43,154 nucleotides of DNA from Candidatus Polarisedimenticolia bacterium (GCA_035764505.1 DASTZC010000060.1:1-43154); one strand, 5' to 3'; positions 927-22,883 are shown, counted from the stretch's first letter. Numbers and translations are program-made. The notes: generated by a model not told the origin, from the letters alone.

Positions 927-1796
927 TCAGAAGCTCACCCGCGCCTGGAAGGAGCCGGGGCCGATCGAGAAGCTGACCGGCGGAGGCTCGCGTCGCGCCC
1001 TCTCGTGCGAGTCGGAGAGAATCTGCCCCACGCTGAAGCCGGTCACCAGGCCCAGGAAGACTTCCGGCGCCCAGTGCTCGTCGGCATCCAGCCTTTGATA
1101 GCCGGTCAGGAACGCCCCGGCGTACAGCGCGCTGGCCCCACCCACCTTCCAGAACCTCGCGGCGGCCGAGTCGTCGGAATGCACCACCAGGTACTGGCGG
1201 CTGAGGATCGGGACGACGGAGGCGGCCAGGGCGGCATGGCCGGAAACGCCGTGACCGCGGCGAGAGAAATAATCGATCTCCTCGCCGTCGAAGGGGCGCT
1301 GCGTGGAAAGCACCGATTGGCCGATGCCGGTGAGCAGCGCGGTGTGACCGGCCGATTCGAGGAGCAGGACCGCGGTCTCCTTCTCGCGCGCATTCCGGGT
1401 CGCGAAAGATGCCCCGTAAGCCAGCAGCGCCAGAGTCGGCGCGAAGCCTTCATGTCCCATGACGCTGATCCGGTCGAGGAACTCGGAAGTCTGCGGGTCG
1501 CTGCGCTCCTGGACCCAGCGGCGGATCTCCTCGCGGTACAGGTAGAGCAGACCCACCGTCCCGGCCGTGAGGGCCACCTTGGTGACGCCGACGCGATCCA
1601 GGTGCGCGGGCCGTGTCCAGAGGTAACGGGCGTCGCTGCCCACCTGGCGCCAGCCATGGGGATGGGGCTCGCCGATCTGATCCATGGGCGGCGCGGGGAC
1701 AACGGATTCCACGCCTTGGGGCTCCGAGGCCGCGGCCAGAGGCGCCGCCCCGAGCAGGAAGACCGTTGCCACGACCCTTCGAAAAAAGCCGCTCAT
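927..1796 (-). CDS. PAP2-family phosphatase-like envelope protein
   Basis: A 289-residue protein with an N-terminal signal sequence (residues about 5-23), then the three-part PAP2 (type 2 phosphatidic acid phosphatase) signature in order: STQRPF, VSGHAALAA, and R-x5-H within YQRLDADEHWAPE. Two positions differ from the classical motifs: the lysine expected seven residues before RP is Gln, and the Asp after the last His is Glu. The core Arg-Pro, Ser-Gly-His and Arg/His are kept. PAP2 enzymes dephosphorylate lipid phosphates on the periplasmic side. Its ATG overlaps the stop of the upstream ABM-fold gene (ATGA), so it is probably translated as the last member of the peptide-modification operon. 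Activity is uncertain because of the substitutions. Confidence 0.8.
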   Translation of the reverse strand: MSGFFRRVVATVFLLGAAPLAAASEPQGVESVVPAPPMDQIGEPHPHGWRQVGSDARYLWTRPAHLDRVGVTKVALTAGTVGLLYLYREEIRRWVQERSDPQTSEFLDRISVMGHEGFAPTLALLAYGASFATRNAREKETAVLLLESAGHTALLTGIGQSVLSTQRPFDGEEIDYFSRRGHGVSGHAALAASVVPILSRQYLVVHSDDSAAARFWKVGGASALYAGAFLTGYQRLDADEHWAPEVFLGLVTGFSVGQILSDSHERARREPPPVSFSIGPGSFQARVSF

Positions 1797-2098
1797 TCCA
1801 CTTCCTCGAAGCAGCCGAGGGGCGATTCCCGCAGGGTCAGGCTCGAGCAGCGCGCATCGAGATCACGATACTCGGATAGGTGTCGCCGCAGAAAATCCTC
1901 GTAGACATCCCGGTCTTGCCAGCGATCCAAGGTCAGGTAACGCGACGAATCCCGGGTTTCGCGCAGGAGCCGGGTGCCGAGGAACGAGGGGCTGCTGGCA
2001 AACAGCTTTGCCCAGACGCCCTGCGGTCCATAGAGCGCTTCGAACTCTGACCGCGTCGCGGCATGCACCACGAATTCCCAGACGATCACGTAGGCCAC
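1793..2098 (-). CDS. ABM-superfamily small protein (antibiotic biosynthesis monooxygenase-like fold)
   Basis: About 101 residues starting from GTG at 2098, with an AGGTG ribosome site just upstream. A longer open frame to 2338 lies inside the upstream gene and is not needed. The protein begins AYVIVWEFVV and continues through YGPQGVWAKLF, YLTLDRWQ and EYRDLDARC to a C-terminal GCFEEVE. This is the pattern of the dimeric alpha/beta-barrel ABM family that trims or oxidises small molecules or simply binds them. The catalytic role cannot be assigned. It starts 8 nt after the stop of the S26/nucleotidyltransferase gene and overlaps the PAP2 gene by 4 nt, so it sits inside the operon. Confidence 0.8.
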   Translation of the reverse strand: MAYVIVWEFVVHAATRSEFEALYGPQGVWAKLFASSPSFLGTRLLRETRDSSRYLTLDRWQDRDVYEDFLRRHLSEYRDLDARCSSLTLRESPLGCFEEVE

Positions 2099-2106
2099 GA
2101 CACACC

Positions 2107-3639
2107 TCAGAGCGGAGCGACCGCTTTGCAGAGCCGGCGTGCGGCCTTGGCCCAGCCGTCGCGCCGAACCGGCGACCATCCGGTGAGCTGACGCGCCAGA
2201 AAACGGATGCGCGTCTCGGCGAGCGGTGCAGGCAGCATCTCCAATTGGAGGTGCCGCAGAAACTCGGGCGGCACAGAGGCGCCGAAGGCCAGGACCGCCA
2301 GACGGAGCCCCACGCAGAGAGAGGGCCCGGCGCCACATTCACGCGCCATGCGCTCGAGCTTACCCCAGTCCCAGGGCGGGGTATCGTCATCGACCAGCAG
2401 GGCGATTTCCAAAACATCGCGCAGGCAGCCGAGGTAGCGGTGCAGCCTGAGGTGCAGGCAGAGATGCAGCAGCCGGTCCTCGCGGCAGGGAACCCTCAAC
2501 TCTCCACCCGCGAAGCGCACCGTCTCGCCGCGGCTCCGGAAGGCATCCGTCAGCGGCTTTTCCAGGACCCGCTCCGGCACGACCTCGCGATGCAGCTCGA
2601 TTACCAGGCCCGAGCCGGGATCCATCTGTGGGGCGCCATGATGGTGGCGAGGCGATTCGGGCCGCGGCTCCTGGAAGCATGGCACGAAGCCGAGCGTCTC
2701 GAGCGCGGCCCGCGCATCGGTCTCGCGCTCGGAGGGGACGAGGAGATCGACGTCGCGCATCTCCCGCAGCGCGTCTTCCTGGTAGAGCGTCAGGCTTTGC
2801 GCGAAGCCCTTCAGCGCCATCGGCTCGACGCCGATGCCGCGCAAAGCTTGTACCACAGCCTCCAGCTTCGGCCGCCACCGGAGCTGATGGAAGGCGACGG
2901 TGGCCTTGCGGCGCTCCAGCCAGGCGCCCGCGGCCTGGCCGTGCAGGCCGCGCTGCGCCACCCATCGCAAGAGCAGCAAGTCCATGCCGAGCGCTTCGGC
3001 AGCCCGCAGGCCCGAGTCGATGAGATCCCCCGCGGGCGCCATCCCGGTTCGACATTGCGCAATCAGGCGGGCCAGAGGCGGGCGGTAGGCATCCACCTGC
3101 CAGTCCTCCAGCCCGGCGCGCAGATTCTCCAAAGCGTCGGCGATCCCGAAAGCACCGCGCAGCGCGCGGCGGTGCAGGGCCATGGTCCAGCGGCCCACCC
3201 GGTTCGGAGAGGCTCCCGCGGCGCGCGTTACCCAGCGGGTCTGCGCCGCCGCCCATTTCCCGACCCACTCCCAGCAGGGCCCGGCGATAAAGCGGGCACC
3301 ATGCGGAGCCGACAGCGCCACCACGATTCCCATCACGTCGGTCGGATCGATCGGCGGGTCGGCCTGCGATGAAGCGTCCCCCTGGGTAATCCAGCGGCGG
3401 GAGCCGGTATCGCCGATCTCGCTTCCGATGATCCGGTGGGTGACCAGGCCGCCTGGCTGCAGGATGACCACGACGTCGCCGAGCCTTGGTGCCTGCGACC
3501 CATGCGAGACGACGAGTCCGGTGGCATGCTCGGTGAGCGGCATCATGCTGCCGCCCGAAAAAGCCATCTGGCTGCGTCGCCACGAGCCTCTCCATAGACG
3601 GTAGAGCTCGAGCCCCATGCGATCCGGCTGCGTCGCCAT
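2107..3639 (-). CDS. Fusion protein: Sec11-type S26 peptidase domain + nucleotidyltransferase (NTP_transf_5-like)
   Basis: 510 residues from the ATG at 3639, whose A is also the last base of the kinase stop (TGATG). Residues 1-110 form an S24/S26-type peptidase of the ER/archaeal kind: Ser31 in GGSMMPL, His68 in THRI, Asp88 in TQGD and Asp94 six residues later. These match the Ser/His/Asp/Asp layout of Sec11-type signal peptidases. Unlike those enzymes, no membrane segment precedes the serine. The C-terminal part (about 200-510) resembles the nucleotidyltransferase family found beside lasso-peptide kinases: ALKGFAQSLTLY followed by REMRDVDLLVPSE, with the DxD metal-binding pair. Likely roles are leader removal and nucleotidyl or sugar-phosphate decoration of a peptide; both are inferred. 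Confidence 0.82.
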   Translation of the reverse strand: MATQPDRMGLELYRLWRGSWRRSQMAFSGGSMMPLTEHATGLVVSHGSQAPRLGDVVVILQPGGLVTHRIIGSEIGDTGSRRWITQGDASSQADPPIDPTDVMGIVVALSAPHGARFIAGPCWEWVGKWAAAQTRWVTRAAGASPNRVGRWTMALHRRALRGAFGIADALENLRAGLEDWQVDAYRPPLARLIAQCRTGMAPAGDLIDSGLRAAEALGMDLLLLRWVAQRGLHGQAAGAWLERRKATVAFHQLRWRPKLEAVVQALRGIGVEPMALKGFAQSLTLYQEDALREMRDVDLLVPSERETDARAALETLGFVPCFQEPRPESPRHHHGAPQMDPGSGLVIELHREVVPERVLEKPLTDAFRSRGETVRFAGGELRVPCREDRLLHLCLHLRLHRYLGCLRDVLEIALLVDDDTPPWDWGKLERMARECGAGPSLCVGLRLAVLAFGASVPPEFLRHLQLEMLPAPLAETRIRFLARQLTGWSPVRRDGWAKAARRLCKAVAPL

Positions 3640-4778
3640 CAAGCTCTTGCCCCACCATGATGCAGGATGTCGAGTGCCGCTTCGGCACGCTCGGGAGGCG
3701 TGCCACCGCTCAGACGCACGAAGCGCGCATGGCCGAGCAGGCGCGCCGCCGTCACCAGGAGCAGGCCGGGCGACATCTTGCCGCGGCCCAGGGCAGAGCT
3801 TTGCGGGCGCCGATTGTGCAGGTCCGAAAGCATCTCCACCAGCGCATCGCCCGCGGGAACCGGATGCATCGCCAGCCGCCGGCGAAAGGCTCCGGCGCGG
3901 CTGCGCACGCGTTCCATCGAATAGACACGCGCACGGTGTTGGCTGAACCAGTCCTGCAGCCGCGCGGCGAGCAGCCTTCCTTCGGGGAGCGTGACACGCA
4001 GATGCGCGCGCCCCGGCGTGGACGGGCGCAAAGGGCGCACCCGGGCGCCGGAAAGCCTCCGGAGCAGCGACGGGCGGCAGGCTTCGTCGAGAACCAGATC
4101 GTAGGTCTGGGCGGTCCCGGAACGGGGGCCCAGGAGAAGCACCGCGGCGGGAGGCGACGGACCTCCCACTCTCATTCCCGGGACCGCCGCGGGATCCAGC
4201 AAGTGTTTGCCCCACTCGCGGACCTTGGAGACGCGGAGCAGGTCGCGCGCCCAGGGAGAATCGGAGACGATCGCGACGCTGCGCGGGAACGGATGCACCG
4301 CTCCATCGCGGACACCGATCGGGGCGTAGTCGTCCGAGAGAAAACCGCAGCCGCGCCGGGCGAGCTCCATCACGAGCGACGTCTTGCCGAATCCCGGCGG
4401 GCCGCAAATCAACAGCGCGCGGCCCTCGCTCGAGACGACCCCCGCGTGGAAGATCAGGTAGCCGCGCAGGGCGTCGATGAGGGCTTCGGTCAACAGCGAC
4501 AGGCCGTGGCTCGCGGGGGCCGAGCGCGGCAGCGGGAAGCGCCTTGTCGCGATGGTGATGGAAGGACGCGGGGCGTGCAGCCTCAGGACGATGCGCCGCT
4601 GGGCGCGCAGGGCACCCGGCGCGAGAAAGTGCCGGTACTGGAAGCGCAGCAATCCGGCGACGGAGAGGTCGTCCGTGAGGATGCGCACGGAGCTGCCGAG
4701 CAGTTGCAGGCGAAGGCTAGAAAACGAGCTGTTTCGAGCGCAGCGCGCGGAGTGCGCCAAGGACGTCGCTTCGGACAT
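3639..4778 (-). CDS. HPr kinase-related P-loop kinase
   Basis: Resembles the HprK-related kinases that phosphorylate Ser or Thr in peptide precursors rather than in HPr. Visible features are a Walker A motif GPPGFGKTS around residues 125-133 (from the start used here), preceded by LIFHAGVVSSEGRALLI, and then GFLSDDYAPI, the HprK-like Asp-Asp segment. The N-terminal strand LRLQLLGSSVRIL also fits the family. The start is uncertain. The ATG at 4778 overlaps the PqqD-like gene by 62 nt; a GTG at 4688 is possible but would remove the first strand, and the frame is open to 4850. The stop shares a base with the next gene's ATG. The neighbours (peptide, PqqD-like chaperone, nucleotidyltransferase) support a peptide substrate. 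Confidence 0.82.
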   Translation of the reverse strand: MSEATSLAHSARCARNSSFSSLRLQLLGSSVRILTDDLSVAGLLRFQYRHFLAPGALRAQRRIVLRLHAPRPSITIATRRFPLPRSAPASHGLSLLTEALIDALRGYLIFHAGVVSSEGRALLICGPPGFGKTSLVMELARRGCGFLSDDYAPIGVRDGAVHPFPRSVAIVSDSPWARDLLRVSKVREWGKHLLDPAAVPGMRVGGPSPPAAVLLLGPRSGTAQTYDLVLDEACRPSLLRRLSGARVRPLRPSTPGRAHLRVTLPEGRLLAARLQDWFSQHRARVYSMERVRSRAGAFRRRLAMHPVPAGDALVEMLSDLHNRRPQSSALGRGKMSPGLLLVTAARLLGHARFVRLSGGTPPERAEAALDILHHGGARA

Positions 4779-4998
4779 CGCGATCCCCGGGGACCTTGAA
4801 CTCGGCTCGCAGGTCGCGCTCGATCGAGTCGAGATCGTGGCTTCCGTCACACAGGCTGTAGATGTGCGCGGCCGATTCGTTCAGGAGGTGCACGGCTCCC
4901 TCGCGCGCATCATAGACCATCAGGTCGCCTCCGATGGACTGCTCCTCGAGGCCATCGCGGCGGCGGGGCTGAACCGTGCTGGTGGGAGTGGAAATCAT
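4717..4998 (-). CDS. PqqD-like RiPP recognition element protein
   Basis: 93 residues with the winged-helix PqqD fold pattern: VYDAREGAVHLLNESAAHIYSLCDGSHDLDSI and a C-terminal helix VLGALRALRSKQLVF. Stand-alone PqqD-like proteins bind leader peptides and present them to modifying enzymes. The conserved LN.(S/T)A..I..LCDG core is intact. The gene lies 106 nt downstream of the candidate precursor peptide gene, separated by a terminator hairpin, and overlaps the 5' end of the kinase frame. In the TIGRFAM literature a PqqD-family chaperone paired with an HprK-related kinase is called an HPr-rel-A system; I assign it to that group by resemblance only. Confidence 0.85.
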   Translation of the reverse strand: MISTPTSTVQPRRRDGLEEQSIGGDLMVYDAREGAVHLLNESAAHIYSLCDGSHDLDSIERDLRAEFKVPGDRDVRSDVLGALRALRSKQLVF

Positions 4999-5040
4999 TG
5001 CGCTCTGGAACGCGTATCCGCGCGAAGAGAACCCCGATAA

Positions 5041-5074
5041 TAAAGAAAGGGCAGCTCGCGGTCACGAGCTGCCC
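5041..5074 (-). terminator. Intra-operon rho-independent terminator/attenuator after the peptide gene
   Basis: Perfect 10-bp inverted repeat GGGCAGCTCG / CGAGCTGCCC (5049-5058 and 5065-5074) with a 6-nt loop. On the minus strand it is followed directly by TTTCTTTA. It lies 30 nt after the stop of the 65-residue peptide gene and before the PqqD-like gene. This arrangement lets precursor mRNA outnumber enzyme mRNA, as in many RiPP operons. Confidence 0.85.
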
Positions 5075-5104
5075 TCGATTCATCGGGACCGTCGATCCGT
5101 AAGA

Positions 5105-5302
5105 TCAGTCCTTGCCAGCAATACCTCTGCCACGCCCACCCTTCGAGTTCGATCCTCCTGACGAGCCGGTCGGATCGGCACCCGGAGCCGTATCCAGGGT
5201 GGGGGCTGCGTACGACGTGGTGGATCCCATTCTTTCCATGATTTCCGATTCGGTGTAGCTGGTGATGGAGGGAGCTTCGTAAGGACGTCGATTGCTGGCC
5301 AT
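5105..5302 (-). CDS. Candidate RiPP-type precursor peptide, 65 residues
   Basis: Small gene with a good ribosome site (AGGAG 8 nt before the ATG), its own upstream promoter candidate and a downstream terminator. The N-terminal half contains YEAPSI at residues 8-13, then SYTESEIMERMG. The YxxPxI/L pattern is the leader element bound by PqqD-like RREs in lasso and related peptides. After the MGS step the C-terminal 38 residues are rich in Ser, Thr, Gly and Ala, contain no Cys, and end in a basic Gly-rich stretch GGRGRGIAGKD. With a kinase and nucleotidyltransferase downstream, Ser/Thr phosphorylation and further decoration are plausible. I do not recognise the core, and the cleavage site is unknown. 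Confidence 0.78.
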   Translation of the reverse strand: MASNRRPYEAPSITSYTESEIMERMGSTTSYAAPTLDTAPGADPTGSSGGSNSKGGRGRGIAGKD

Positions 5303-5379
5303 CTCATCCGCTCCTGTCTTGCCGCCGGGTCGTGAAGACCGCTTGGAATAAGTGCTTTTGCCGTCCGTCGATACGCAAA

Positions 5380-5407
5380 GCTATCCCGAGTGCGGAGAGG
5401 ATGTCAA
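5380..5407 (-). promoter_or_regulatory. Candidate sigma-70 promoter of the peptide operon
   Basis: Minus-strand TTGACA (5407-5402), 16-nt spacer, then GATAGC (5385-5380). The -35 is perfect and the -10 weak. Predicted start is near 5372, about 70 nt before the peptide ATG. Confidence 0.5.
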
Positions 5408-5444
5408 GAGGCCTGGTCCATCTTATTGCCGGGACTGCTCCGGC

Positions 5445-5945
5445 TCAATGAATGGTCGCACCCTCGTCATCCTCGGCCAAGTCGCTGTTTTCCAGCGTTT
5501 TGTGAATGAATTCGGCCTGCTCGAACTCCCGGGTGGCTTCCTGGACCCGTCCCATTTTCAAATAAATGCGGCCCAGATTGAGATAGGGAAAGTGGCGCGG
5601 CTCGTAGCGACGCGCGAGCTTGGCTTTTTCCAGCCAGGGAATGGCCTCCTCGATCTGCCCGAGGTGAACGAGGTAGGAGCCGATGTCGTTGTAGGGGTTG
5701 CCGAACTCCGGGTCCACCTCGATGGCGGTCTTGCATTCGGCGATCGCTTCGTCGTAGCGGCCCAGGAAGGAATAGGTCCAACCCAGGAAGGTATGAGCCT
5801 CGGCGGTGGGATGAGCGTCGATGGAGGCCCGGTACAGCTGGATTGCCGCCTGGTAGTCGCCCTGCATCTGGCGCTCGTAGGCGTTCCTGAGGAGATGGGC
5901 GGCGCGCTGCTCGGCGTGCATGGTCTTTTCGTCGGTTCTTTCCAT
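5445..5945 (-). CDS. Tetratricopeptide repeat protein
   Basis: 166 residues from the ATG at 5945, chosen because GGAGG lies 5 nt upstream; a further ATG at 5966 lacks such a site. About four TPR units are visible, for example AYERQMQGDYQAAIQLYRAS, AHTFLGWTYSFLGRYDEAI, NDIGSYLVHLGQIEEAIP and LNLGRIYLKMGRVQEATREF. There is no signal peptide, so it is probably a cytoplasmic scaffold. The last residues are acidic (AEDDEGATIH). It is co-directional with the peptide locus, 143 nt upstream of the peptide ATG, and that gap contains the peptide promoter candidate. A weak hairpin (5428-5444) follows the stop. A functional link to the peptide system is not shown. Confidence 0.85.
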   Translation of the reverse strand: MERTDEKTMHAEQRAAHLLRNAYERQMQGDYQAAIQLYRASIDAHPTAEAHTFLGWTYSFLGRYDEAIAECKTAIEVDPEFGNPYNDIGSYLVHLGQIEEAIPWLEKAKLARRYEPRHFPYLNLGRIYLKMGRVQEATREFEQAEFIHKTLENSDLAEDDEGATIH

Positions 5946-20957: not shown

Positions 20958-22883
20958 GTGGACGCGCCCCGCCGCCTCGTCATCGGAACCGCCGGCCACA
21001 TCGACCACGGCAAGTCCCTCCTGGTCCGCGCCCTCACCGGCATCGATCCCGATCGACTCAAGGAAGAGAAGGAGCGCGGCATCACCATTGATCTGGGCTT
21101 CGCCTCGCTGGCGCTGCCCGGCGGCGCGCAGGCCGGTTTCGTGGACGTCCCCGGCCACGAGCGCTTCGTGCGCAACATGCTGGCCGGCGTGGGCGGAATC
21201 GACCTGGTTCTCCTGGTGATCGCCGCCGACGAGTCGATCAAGCCGCAGACGCGCGAGCACTTCCAGATCTGCCGGCTGCTCGGCATCCCGCGAGGAGTCA
21301 TCGTCCTCACCAAATCCGATCTGGTCGATACCGACATCCTGGAGATCGTTCGCCTCGAGGTGCGGGAGTTCGTCGCCGGCTCCTTCCTGGAGCAGGCTCC
21401 AATCCTGGCTGTTTCCGCCAAAACCGGCGCCGGTCTCGACGAGCTGAAGCAGGCGCTCGCCGCGGAGGCGGGCTCGGTCCCGGGGCGCCCCTTGGGGCGC
21501 GTCTTCCGGCTCCCGGTGGACCGCTCCTTCTCGATCCGTGGCTTTGGCACCGTCGTCACCGGGACGCTGATATCAGGAAGCGTGACGACAGGGGAGGAGA
21601 TCGAAGTGCTTCCAACGCGCCAGCGCGCCAAGGTCCGAGGGTTGGAGGTCTTCGGCGAGGCACGGCGCGAAGCCTCGGCGGGCCAGCGCACCGCCGTCAA
21701 CCTTCAAGGTCTGGAAGCCGCCGCGGTGCTGAGGGGAAACCTGCTGGCGCCGCGCGACGTCCTGCGGCCATCGCGCCTGCTGGACGTGAAGGTGGAGGCC
21801 CTCTCTAGCGAGGCGGGCATCGAAGACCAGATGCCGGTCCGCTTCCACCATCTCTCTTTCGAGACCCTGGGAAGGATCCGCCTGGCGGGGATAGAGCGCC
21901 TGGAGCCCGGGGAGTCAGGCTTCGCCCAGATCCGCCTCTCCCGCCCGGCGGTTGCTATTCCGGGAGATCGCTTCATCCTGCGCCGTCCTTCCCCGGCGGC
22001 GACGCTCGGCGGCGGGGTGATTCTCGACAACCTGCCCCGCAAGCTGCGTGCCCCGGAAGCCGCCACCCTGGCCCGCCGGCTGCAGAGCCTGGAGAGTCCC
22101 GACGGAGGAATCCGGCTGAAAGAGCTGGTCCGTGGCGGGGGGAAACAGGGGATGGATCTCACCGAGCTGCGCGCCCGCACCGGATGGTCGGCCGAGTTCC
22201 TCCTCGAGTCCCTCGCCGGTCCGTTGAAATCCGGGGAAATCATCCGCGTCTCTTCCGAGCCACCCCGCTTCCTGGCCGCCGACCTTCACGACGAGCTCCT
22301 TGGAGAGATTGTCGGTGCCCTGGAAGCCTTTCACCGGGAGCACCCGCTGCAGGTCGGCCTTCCCAAGGAAGAAATCCGCTCCCGCTTCTTCCGGCGCGCT
22401 CCGGGGGAGCTGTTCCGGGCGCTGCTGGAAGAAGGAGCGCGCCGCGGGCGCCTGCGCGTGGATCGGGACTTGGTGGCGGCCGCCAGCCACAAGGTGACCC
22501 TCAAGGAGGCGGAAGTGTCGGCTTCAGAGCGGATTGAGGAGAGCTTTCGAAATGCCGGATTGAATCCTCCCGACCCGGCCCAGGTCGTGGCCGATCTGGC
22601 GCTGAGCCGCGAGACGGCGGAGAACCTTTTCTTTCTACTGGTCAAACAGGGAAAGCTGGTGCGCGTGCAGGAAGGACGGATCTTCCACGCCGCGGCGCTG
22701 GAAGCCCTCAAGGCGAGGGTTTGGGAGCACGGCAAGACGTCCGATCTCCTGGACATCGCGACCTTCAAGGATCTTTCGGGGACCACCCGCAAGAACGCCA
22801 TCCCGCTTCTCGAATACCTGGATACGGTGAGAGTTACGCGCCGCGACGGCGATCGCCGGCGCATCCTGCCTCCCGTTCGCTGA
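20958..22883 (+). CDS. selB: Selenocysteine-specific elongation factor SelB
   Basis: 641 residues from GTG 20958, with GGAG about 11 nt upstream. The EF-Tu-like GTPase domain has G1 GTAGHIDHGKS (residues 10-20), ERGITIDLGFA, G3 DVPGHERFVRNML and G4 TKSDLVD. Domains II-III include the FRLPVDRSFSIRGFGTVVTGTL block specific to SelB/IF2-like factors. The C-terminal 250 residues contain the winged helices that bind SECIS RNA (LVKQGKLVRVQEGRIFHAAALEAL, then FKDLSGTTRKNAIPLLEYLD). SelB delivers Sec-tRNA to in-frame UGA. No selA, selD, selC tRNA or obvious selenoprotein gene is present in the window. Confidence 0.97.
   Translation: MDAPRRLVIGTAGHIDHGKSLLVRALTGIDPDRLKEEKERGITIDLGFASLALPGGAQAGFVDVPGHERFVRNMLAGVGGIDLVLLVIAADESIKPQTREHFQICRLLGIPRGVIVLTKSDLVDTDILEIVRLEVREFVAGSFLEQAPILAVSAKTGAGLDELKQALAAEAGSVPGRPLGRVFRLPVDRSFSIRGFGTVVTGTLISGSVTTGEEIEVLPTRQRAKVRGLEVFGEARREASAGQRTAVNLQGLEAAAVLRGNLLAPRDVLRPSRLLDVKVEALSSEAGIEDQMPVRFHHLSFETLGRIRLAGIERLEPGESGFAQIRLSRPAVAIPGDRFILRRPSPAATLGGGVILDNLPRKLRAPEAATLARRLQSLESPDGGIRLKELVRGGGKQGMDLTELRARTGWSAEFLLESLAGPLKSGEIIRVSSEPPRFLAADLHDELLGEIVGALEAFHREHPLQVGLPKEEIRSRFFRRAPGELFRALLEEGARRGRLRVDRDLVAAASHKVTLKEAEVSASERIEESFRNAGLNPPDPAQVVADLALSRETAENLFFLLVKQGKLVRVQEGRIFHAAALEALKARVWEHGKTSDLLDIATFKDLSGTTRKNAIPLLEYLDTVRVTRRDGDRRRILPPVR

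Follow-up and report, generated by a model that had tools for sequence, protein, structure and literature searches.

Gene content of the locus

We analyzed a stretch of 43,154 nucleotides from Candidatus Polarisedimenticolia bacterium (GCA_035764505.1, DASTZC010000060.1:1-43154; hereafter, the window), which carries a probable cassette for a ribosomally synthesized and post-translationally modified peptide (RiPP). Five open reading frames (ORFs) lie in a row on the minus strand, and all five were verified to be present. They encode a precursor peptide of 65 amino acids (5105-5302), a PqqD-like discrete RiPP recognition element (RRE) of 93 amino acids (4717-4998), an HprK-like putative peptide kinase of uncertain start (3639-4850 from a GTG at 4850, or from an ATG at 4778), a 510-amino-acid fusion of an S26 (Sec11/SipW-type) peptidase to an NTP_transf_5 nucleotidyltransferase (2107-3639), and an ABM-domain protein (1793-2101). 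As a preliminary description of this DNA had noted, the genes are tightly packed. The PqqD gene (4998-4717) and the kinase ORF overlap, the kinase stop and fusion start share an ATGA at 3639, and 5 nucleotides separate the fusion stop from the ABM start.

The peptide has the leader motif YEAPSI (Y8, P11, and I13, spaced Y-x2-P-x-I), a hydrophobic residue 13 positions after the Tyr, and a C-terminal half rich in Ser, Thr, and Gly. Single-sequence searches with the peptide were noisy below about E = 0.001, so its family was assembled from the neighbors of PqqD genes instead. Small ORFs adjoining PqqD genes in the same class have in common the pattern Y-x-A-P-x-I-x-T-[YF]...E-[FIL]-[LM]-x-x-[LIM]-G-P-A-Q. 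A leave-one-out profile of ten such peptides, from which the window peptide was excluded, recovered it among 388 window ORFs at E = 5.9e-10, with the runner-up at 0.82. Judged by this recovery, the window peptide is a genuine family member. We then used a survey set of 396 genomes of the phylum, in which G000 is the window's own. The full peptide profile had matches in 30 of these genomes, the weakest few being doubtful. Peptides stand beside PqqD in G013, G020, G023, G027, G029, G033, G035, G037, G039, G040, and G097, and beside HprK-like kinases at G033:C191, G055:C171, G079, and G324 (more weakly in G064 and G129). Further YxxP-family peptides have no enzyme gene close by.

The PqqD-like protein matched TIGR04353 at 41 bits (cut-off 35) and PF05402 at 40.9 bits. 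The kinase contains H135, G150, G153, G155, K156, T157, D173, and D174, with exactly the spacing found in BsfK, the lasso peptide kinase whose studied residues served as our reference (PMC10368454). Its structure model matched ATP-PEPCK and HprK/P. The enzyme is an HprK-like kinase with intact catalytic residues and the HprK/PEPCK fold.

The next gene bears out the earlier report of a Sec11-type protease joined to a nucleotidyltransferase, as both lie in one uninterrupted frame. The transferase domain (2281-2973) matched PF14907 at E = 2e-37 and has the motifs LKG (276), RDVDLLV (D296, D298), and IELHRE (347), with the catalytic DxD intact. Pfam and NCBIfam searches of the window fusion did not recognize the S26 domain (residues 7-117; 3289-3621) directly, so its assignment is supported via relatives and by fold. 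A full-length fusion in G018, 35% identical, matched TIGR02228 (archaeal signal peptidase I) at 1.1e-7, and stand-alone S26 relatives did so at about 1e-6. The structure model had a mean predicted local distance difference test (pLDDT) score of 74.6, with values mostly of 80-90 over S26 residues 40-110 and above 90 in parts of the transferase. Its first part matched human SPC-C/Sec11, UmuD', SipA, and SpsB, and its second part ANT(2''), LnuA, MenT1, and TM1012. The S26 domain has S31 (GGSMMP), H68 (THRI), and two Asp in Sec11-like positions, D88 (TQGD) and D94, giving His-to-Asp spacings of 20 and 26, which we take to be those of yeast Sec11. The domain has no N-terminal membrane helix. Among the 396 genomes, the full fusion occurred only in the window genome and G018. 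Scans of genome contigs with the fusion alone and with an alignment of the two fusions returned no relatives, and a PDB sequence search with the fusion profile returned nothing useful.

Extent and expression of the cassette

To delimit the cassette, we compared the window with genomes of the same genus (G001) and the same family (G003). In both, genes for a permease, a hypothetical protein, a TPR protein, the ABM protein, a PAP2 protein, and LarC are contiguous and the cassette is absent. The gap between the TPR and ABM genes is 230 bp in G001 and about 25 bp in G003. Similarity to the window at the DNA level ends at the TPR stop codon (5445) and restarts at the ABM start (about 2100), so that the stretch missing from both genomes is 2101-5445. 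These comparisons indicate an insertion of about 3.3 kb (or else two separate losses) comprising the genes for the peptide, RRE, kinase, and fusion, all four of which travel together as a single block. A search for transposon ends found no terminal or flanking repeats at the insertion, and the 230-bp gap in G001 has no similarity that would mark it as a cassette remnant. The G+C content around the cassette is 0.58-0.73.

Because G001 and G003 keep the TPR-ABM junction without the cassette, we regard the system as a four-gene unit and the ABM gene (PF03992, 25 bits) as an old neighbor. This synteny rules out the ABM protein as a tailoring enzyme or other component, the place it had been given in the preliminary description. 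Ending the locus at the ABM gene also divided an ancestral gene pair, as the ABM stop overlaps the start of a PAP2-superfamily gene (ATGA at 1796-1793). The ABM protein and the PAP2-superfamily protein, which has a signal-peptide-like start, together occupy 927-2101 on the minus strand and are also found together in G001 and G003.

Between the peptide and PqqD genes lies a terminator-like hairpin (5047-5076, minus strand) with 13 base pairs, a loop of 4, and a T-rich tail (fold of -37 kcal/mol for 75 nucleotides, z = -4.27). Partial termination is commonly placed between the precursor and enzyme genes of RiPP operons, and this hairpin is probably an attenuator, which would let the precursor be produced in larger amounts than the enzymes. 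The single promoter initially proposed for all of the genes is therefore doubtful and oversimplified. A possible promoter was seen by eye on the minus strand at 5378-5407, with TTGACA (5407-5402), a gap of 18 nucleotides, and a weak -10 element, TAGCTT (5383-5378). We graded this candidate as weak because a promoter scan of the region did not pick it up.

Elsewhere in the window, a plus-strand frame at 20958-22883 resembles by eye the selenocysteine elongation factor SelB, which suggests selenoprotein use.

Likeness to linear polyphosphorylated peptides

Of the systems described so far, the cassette is nearest to that of the linear polyphosphorylated peptides (LPPs), known from the lpp cluster of Paenibacillus alginolyticus (Popov et al. 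2026, PMC13381572). Our literature search found no LPPs beyond that paper. Their gene set consists of a YxxP-leader precursor, a discrete RRE, an HprK-like kinase, a SipW-like peptidase, a nucleotidyltransferase (NTP transferase), and an MsbA-like exporter. The SipW-like leader peptidase (S29/H68/D93) depends on the RRE, Ser3 of the core is multiply phosphorylated, and LPPs are stated to be restricted to Bacillota (PMC13381572). The cassette has in common with LPP clusters the YxxP precursor, discrete RRE, HprK-like kinase, peptidase resembling SipW and archaeal-type signal peptidases, and NTP transferase, as well as the lack of a cyclase. In contrast, the counterparts of LppS and LppN are one protein in the cassette, which lies outside Bacillota and not within a capsule locus. 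The window genome encodes LptD, implying that an outer membrane is present (i.e., a diderm).

The likeness extends to the leader. In LPPs, the leader positions are Y-16, P-13, V-11, and F-3, and the leader ends 15 residues past the Tyr, with Ser3 following (PMC13381572). The window peptide agrees at the Tyr and Pro, and its counterparts of V-11 and F-3 are hydrophobic. Counting 15 residues past its Tyr reaches E23, which makes S27, the fourth residue beyond, the first candidate phosphosite. However, kinase-linked relatives do not conserve S27, so this assignment is weak and the phosphosite amounts to a guess.

Given this shared architecture, the four genes are probably an LPP-like RiPP cassette, distinguished by a new fusion and by its occurrence outside Bacillota. 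We also consider it likely that the genes at 5302-2107 provide for RRE binding, phosphorylation, cleavage, and a second modification of a linear peptide. The PqqD-like protein would bind the YEAPSI leader and present the peptide, and the kinase would phosphorylate a Ser or Thr just past the leader, by spacing likeliest S27 (or T28, T29, or S30). The S26 half of the fusion would remove the leader in the cytoplasm via its Ser-His-Asp site, and, once the peptide is phosphorylated, the other half would decorate it with a nucleotide or a group of the sugar-phosphate type. Since there is no cyclase, the product should stay linear; its function and export are likewise presumptive. A linear peptide that is phosphorylated, cleaved, and possibly nucleotidylated had been anticipated in the preliminary description, and the match to LPP architecture supports that view, with phosphorylation and nucleotidylation predicted by analogy. 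The existence of a protease-nucleotidyltransferase fusion in another phylum suggests that both steps act on the same peptide.

Several observations count against an LPP-like cassette. When the extended LPP consensus YxxPxVLxHQxIxFETxxS was tested on the window peptide, the HQxIxFETxxS portion was absent. The GPAQ segment conserved among its relatives is GSTTS in the window peptide, and a Ser common to kinase-linked peptides at the GPAQ position was sought by eye without success. No MsbA-like exporter is encoded in the insertion or the adjoining genes, and no activity could be detected for LppN in the model LPP system itself (PMC13381572). The only other fusion locus (G018:C28) has the order PqqD, kinase, C25 peptidase, and fusion, with no adjacent peptide, although G018 carries a YxxP...GPAQ peptide on another contig (C47). 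The constant adjacency of a small peptide, raised at the outset, thus holds at several other kinase loci but fails at this one.

Related loci and alternative explanations

Loci with the same kinds of genes recur in the phylum. In G079 and G064, an S26 gene that stands alone accompanies those for the peptide, PqqD, and kinase, and G064 also has NTP_transf_5. In these loci (L089, G064:C138; L090, G079:C16), three consecutive ferritin-like genes stand among those for the YxxP peptide, PqqD, kinase, and S26. One ferritin-like protein was tested and matched DUF455 at E = 8.8e-28, and such loci are possibly an oxidative RiPP variant. At L085, L093, L095, L098, L099, and others, PqqD and a YxxP...LGPAQGYGG...RLFPGLR peptide adjoin exopolysaccharide export genes (Wza/Wzc-like on visual inspection) and there is no kinase; this arrangement recurs in many genomes of the class. 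The YxxP...LGPAQ peptides of exopolysaccharide loci in G013, G023, G033, G037, and G040 have a leader homologous to that of the window peptide and an adjacent PqqD gene. They differ from the cassette in that GPAQ is kept and the kinase, S26, and NTP_transf_5 genes are not directly beside them.

C25 (gingipain-family) peptidases also recur beside PqqD, kinase, or S26 genes, namely in G018 (L041, C28), at two loci of G055 (L083, C236; L209, C171), in G129 (L210, C1), and at a second locus of the window genome (L042, G000:C262). The cassette might therefore be a system for maturation or secretion of a larger secreted protein, with C25 partners and a regulatory or carrier role for the peptide. The G018 fusion operon, with its C25 gene and no adjacent peptide, would fit such a role. 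We nevertheless judge this unlikely, as the window cassette has no C25 gene and C25 co-occurs with a YxxP peptide at G055:C171 and in G129, implying that C25 can be an additional processing enzyme. The second locus of the window genome (L042:3991-11999) has its own HprK-like kinase and PqqD together with a radical SAM/SPASM protein and the C25 peptidase. At L209 and L210, a YxxP peptide with two Cys accompanies a PqqD-radical-SAM-SPASM protein, and L210 also has S26 and an ABC transporter. These C25-associated loci look like another peptide system, based on radical SAM chemistry.

Two known systems overlap with the cassette in gene content. The preliminary description had linked it by resemblance to HPr-rel-A systems (TIGR04352/TIGR04353), which also combine a PqqD protein above cut-off, an HprK-like kinase, and a nucleotidyltransferase. 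The link stands for the PqqD-like protein, which passes TIGR04353, and breaks down for the kinase, whose TIGR04352 score of 52 bits is far short of the 200-bit cut-off, whereas a positive control from G021 reached 280 bits. This rules out HPr-rel-A membership of the window kinase. That the cassette as a whole is an HPr-rel-A member, in which PqqD_rel_X, HprK_rel_A, and nucleotidyltransferase act on another target, is quite improbable. The genuine locus in G021 (L080:6478-9165, G021:C1) does likewise join PqqD, kinase, and NTP_transf_5. However, its small protein is of another type (with RRALIKGGLVAVPAMITL and no YxxP), and the stretch of this locus that was analyzed contains no S26 domain. This small protein may be an unrecognized HPr-rel-A substrate; at L084:7639-8304 (G053), a tail similar to it is fused to a PqqD domain.

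Lasso peptide clusters of the Bsf and paeninodin/pseudomycoidin types (PMC10368454, PMC8498205) share an RRE (B1), an HprK-like kinase, and a nucleotidyltransferase with the cassette, which has an S26 serine protease in place of the cysteine protease B2 and has no cyclase. A decayed, non-functional lasso cluster that lost its cyclase and B2 could account for the shared genes. We consider decay very unlikely because all catalytic residues are intact, the frames are undamaged, S26 peptidases are not lasso enzymes, and the in-frame fusion is also present in G018. The absence of lasso machinery, reported from the outset, extends to the whole genome for the transglutaminase-like peptidase B2, as PF13471 had no match in an assembly rated 100% complete. 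There is no asparagine-synthetase-like macrolactam cyclase in the window cassette, and the eight PF00733 matches on other contigs were counted as matches only. Some Firmicutes lasso clusters fuse the nucleotidyltransferase to the B2 leader peptidase (PMC8498205), which implies that protease-transferase fusions arose with two unrelated proteases.

Implications

The kinds of genes in LPP clusters were already known; new here are the peptidase-nucleotidyltransferase fusion and the occurrence outside Bacillota. The clean empty sites in genomes of the same genus and family define a minimal gene set, and such a compact four-gene system makes the reaction of the LPP NTP transferase testable. Our results also indicate that there are many YxxP...GPAQ peptides yet to be studied. 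More tentatively, a phylum of the Gram-negative type may hold a lineage of LPP-like phosphopeptide RiPPs in which a single enzyme, uniting leader protease and nucleotidyltransferase, carries out both the cleavage and the decoration of one and the same phosphorylated peptide. This lineage would draw on class-wide YxxP...GPAQ peptides. Some of these have no enzyme genes anywhere near them, and their modification would probably occur in trans, through RRE/kinase loci at other sites that often adjoin exopolysaccharide genes or C25 peptidases.

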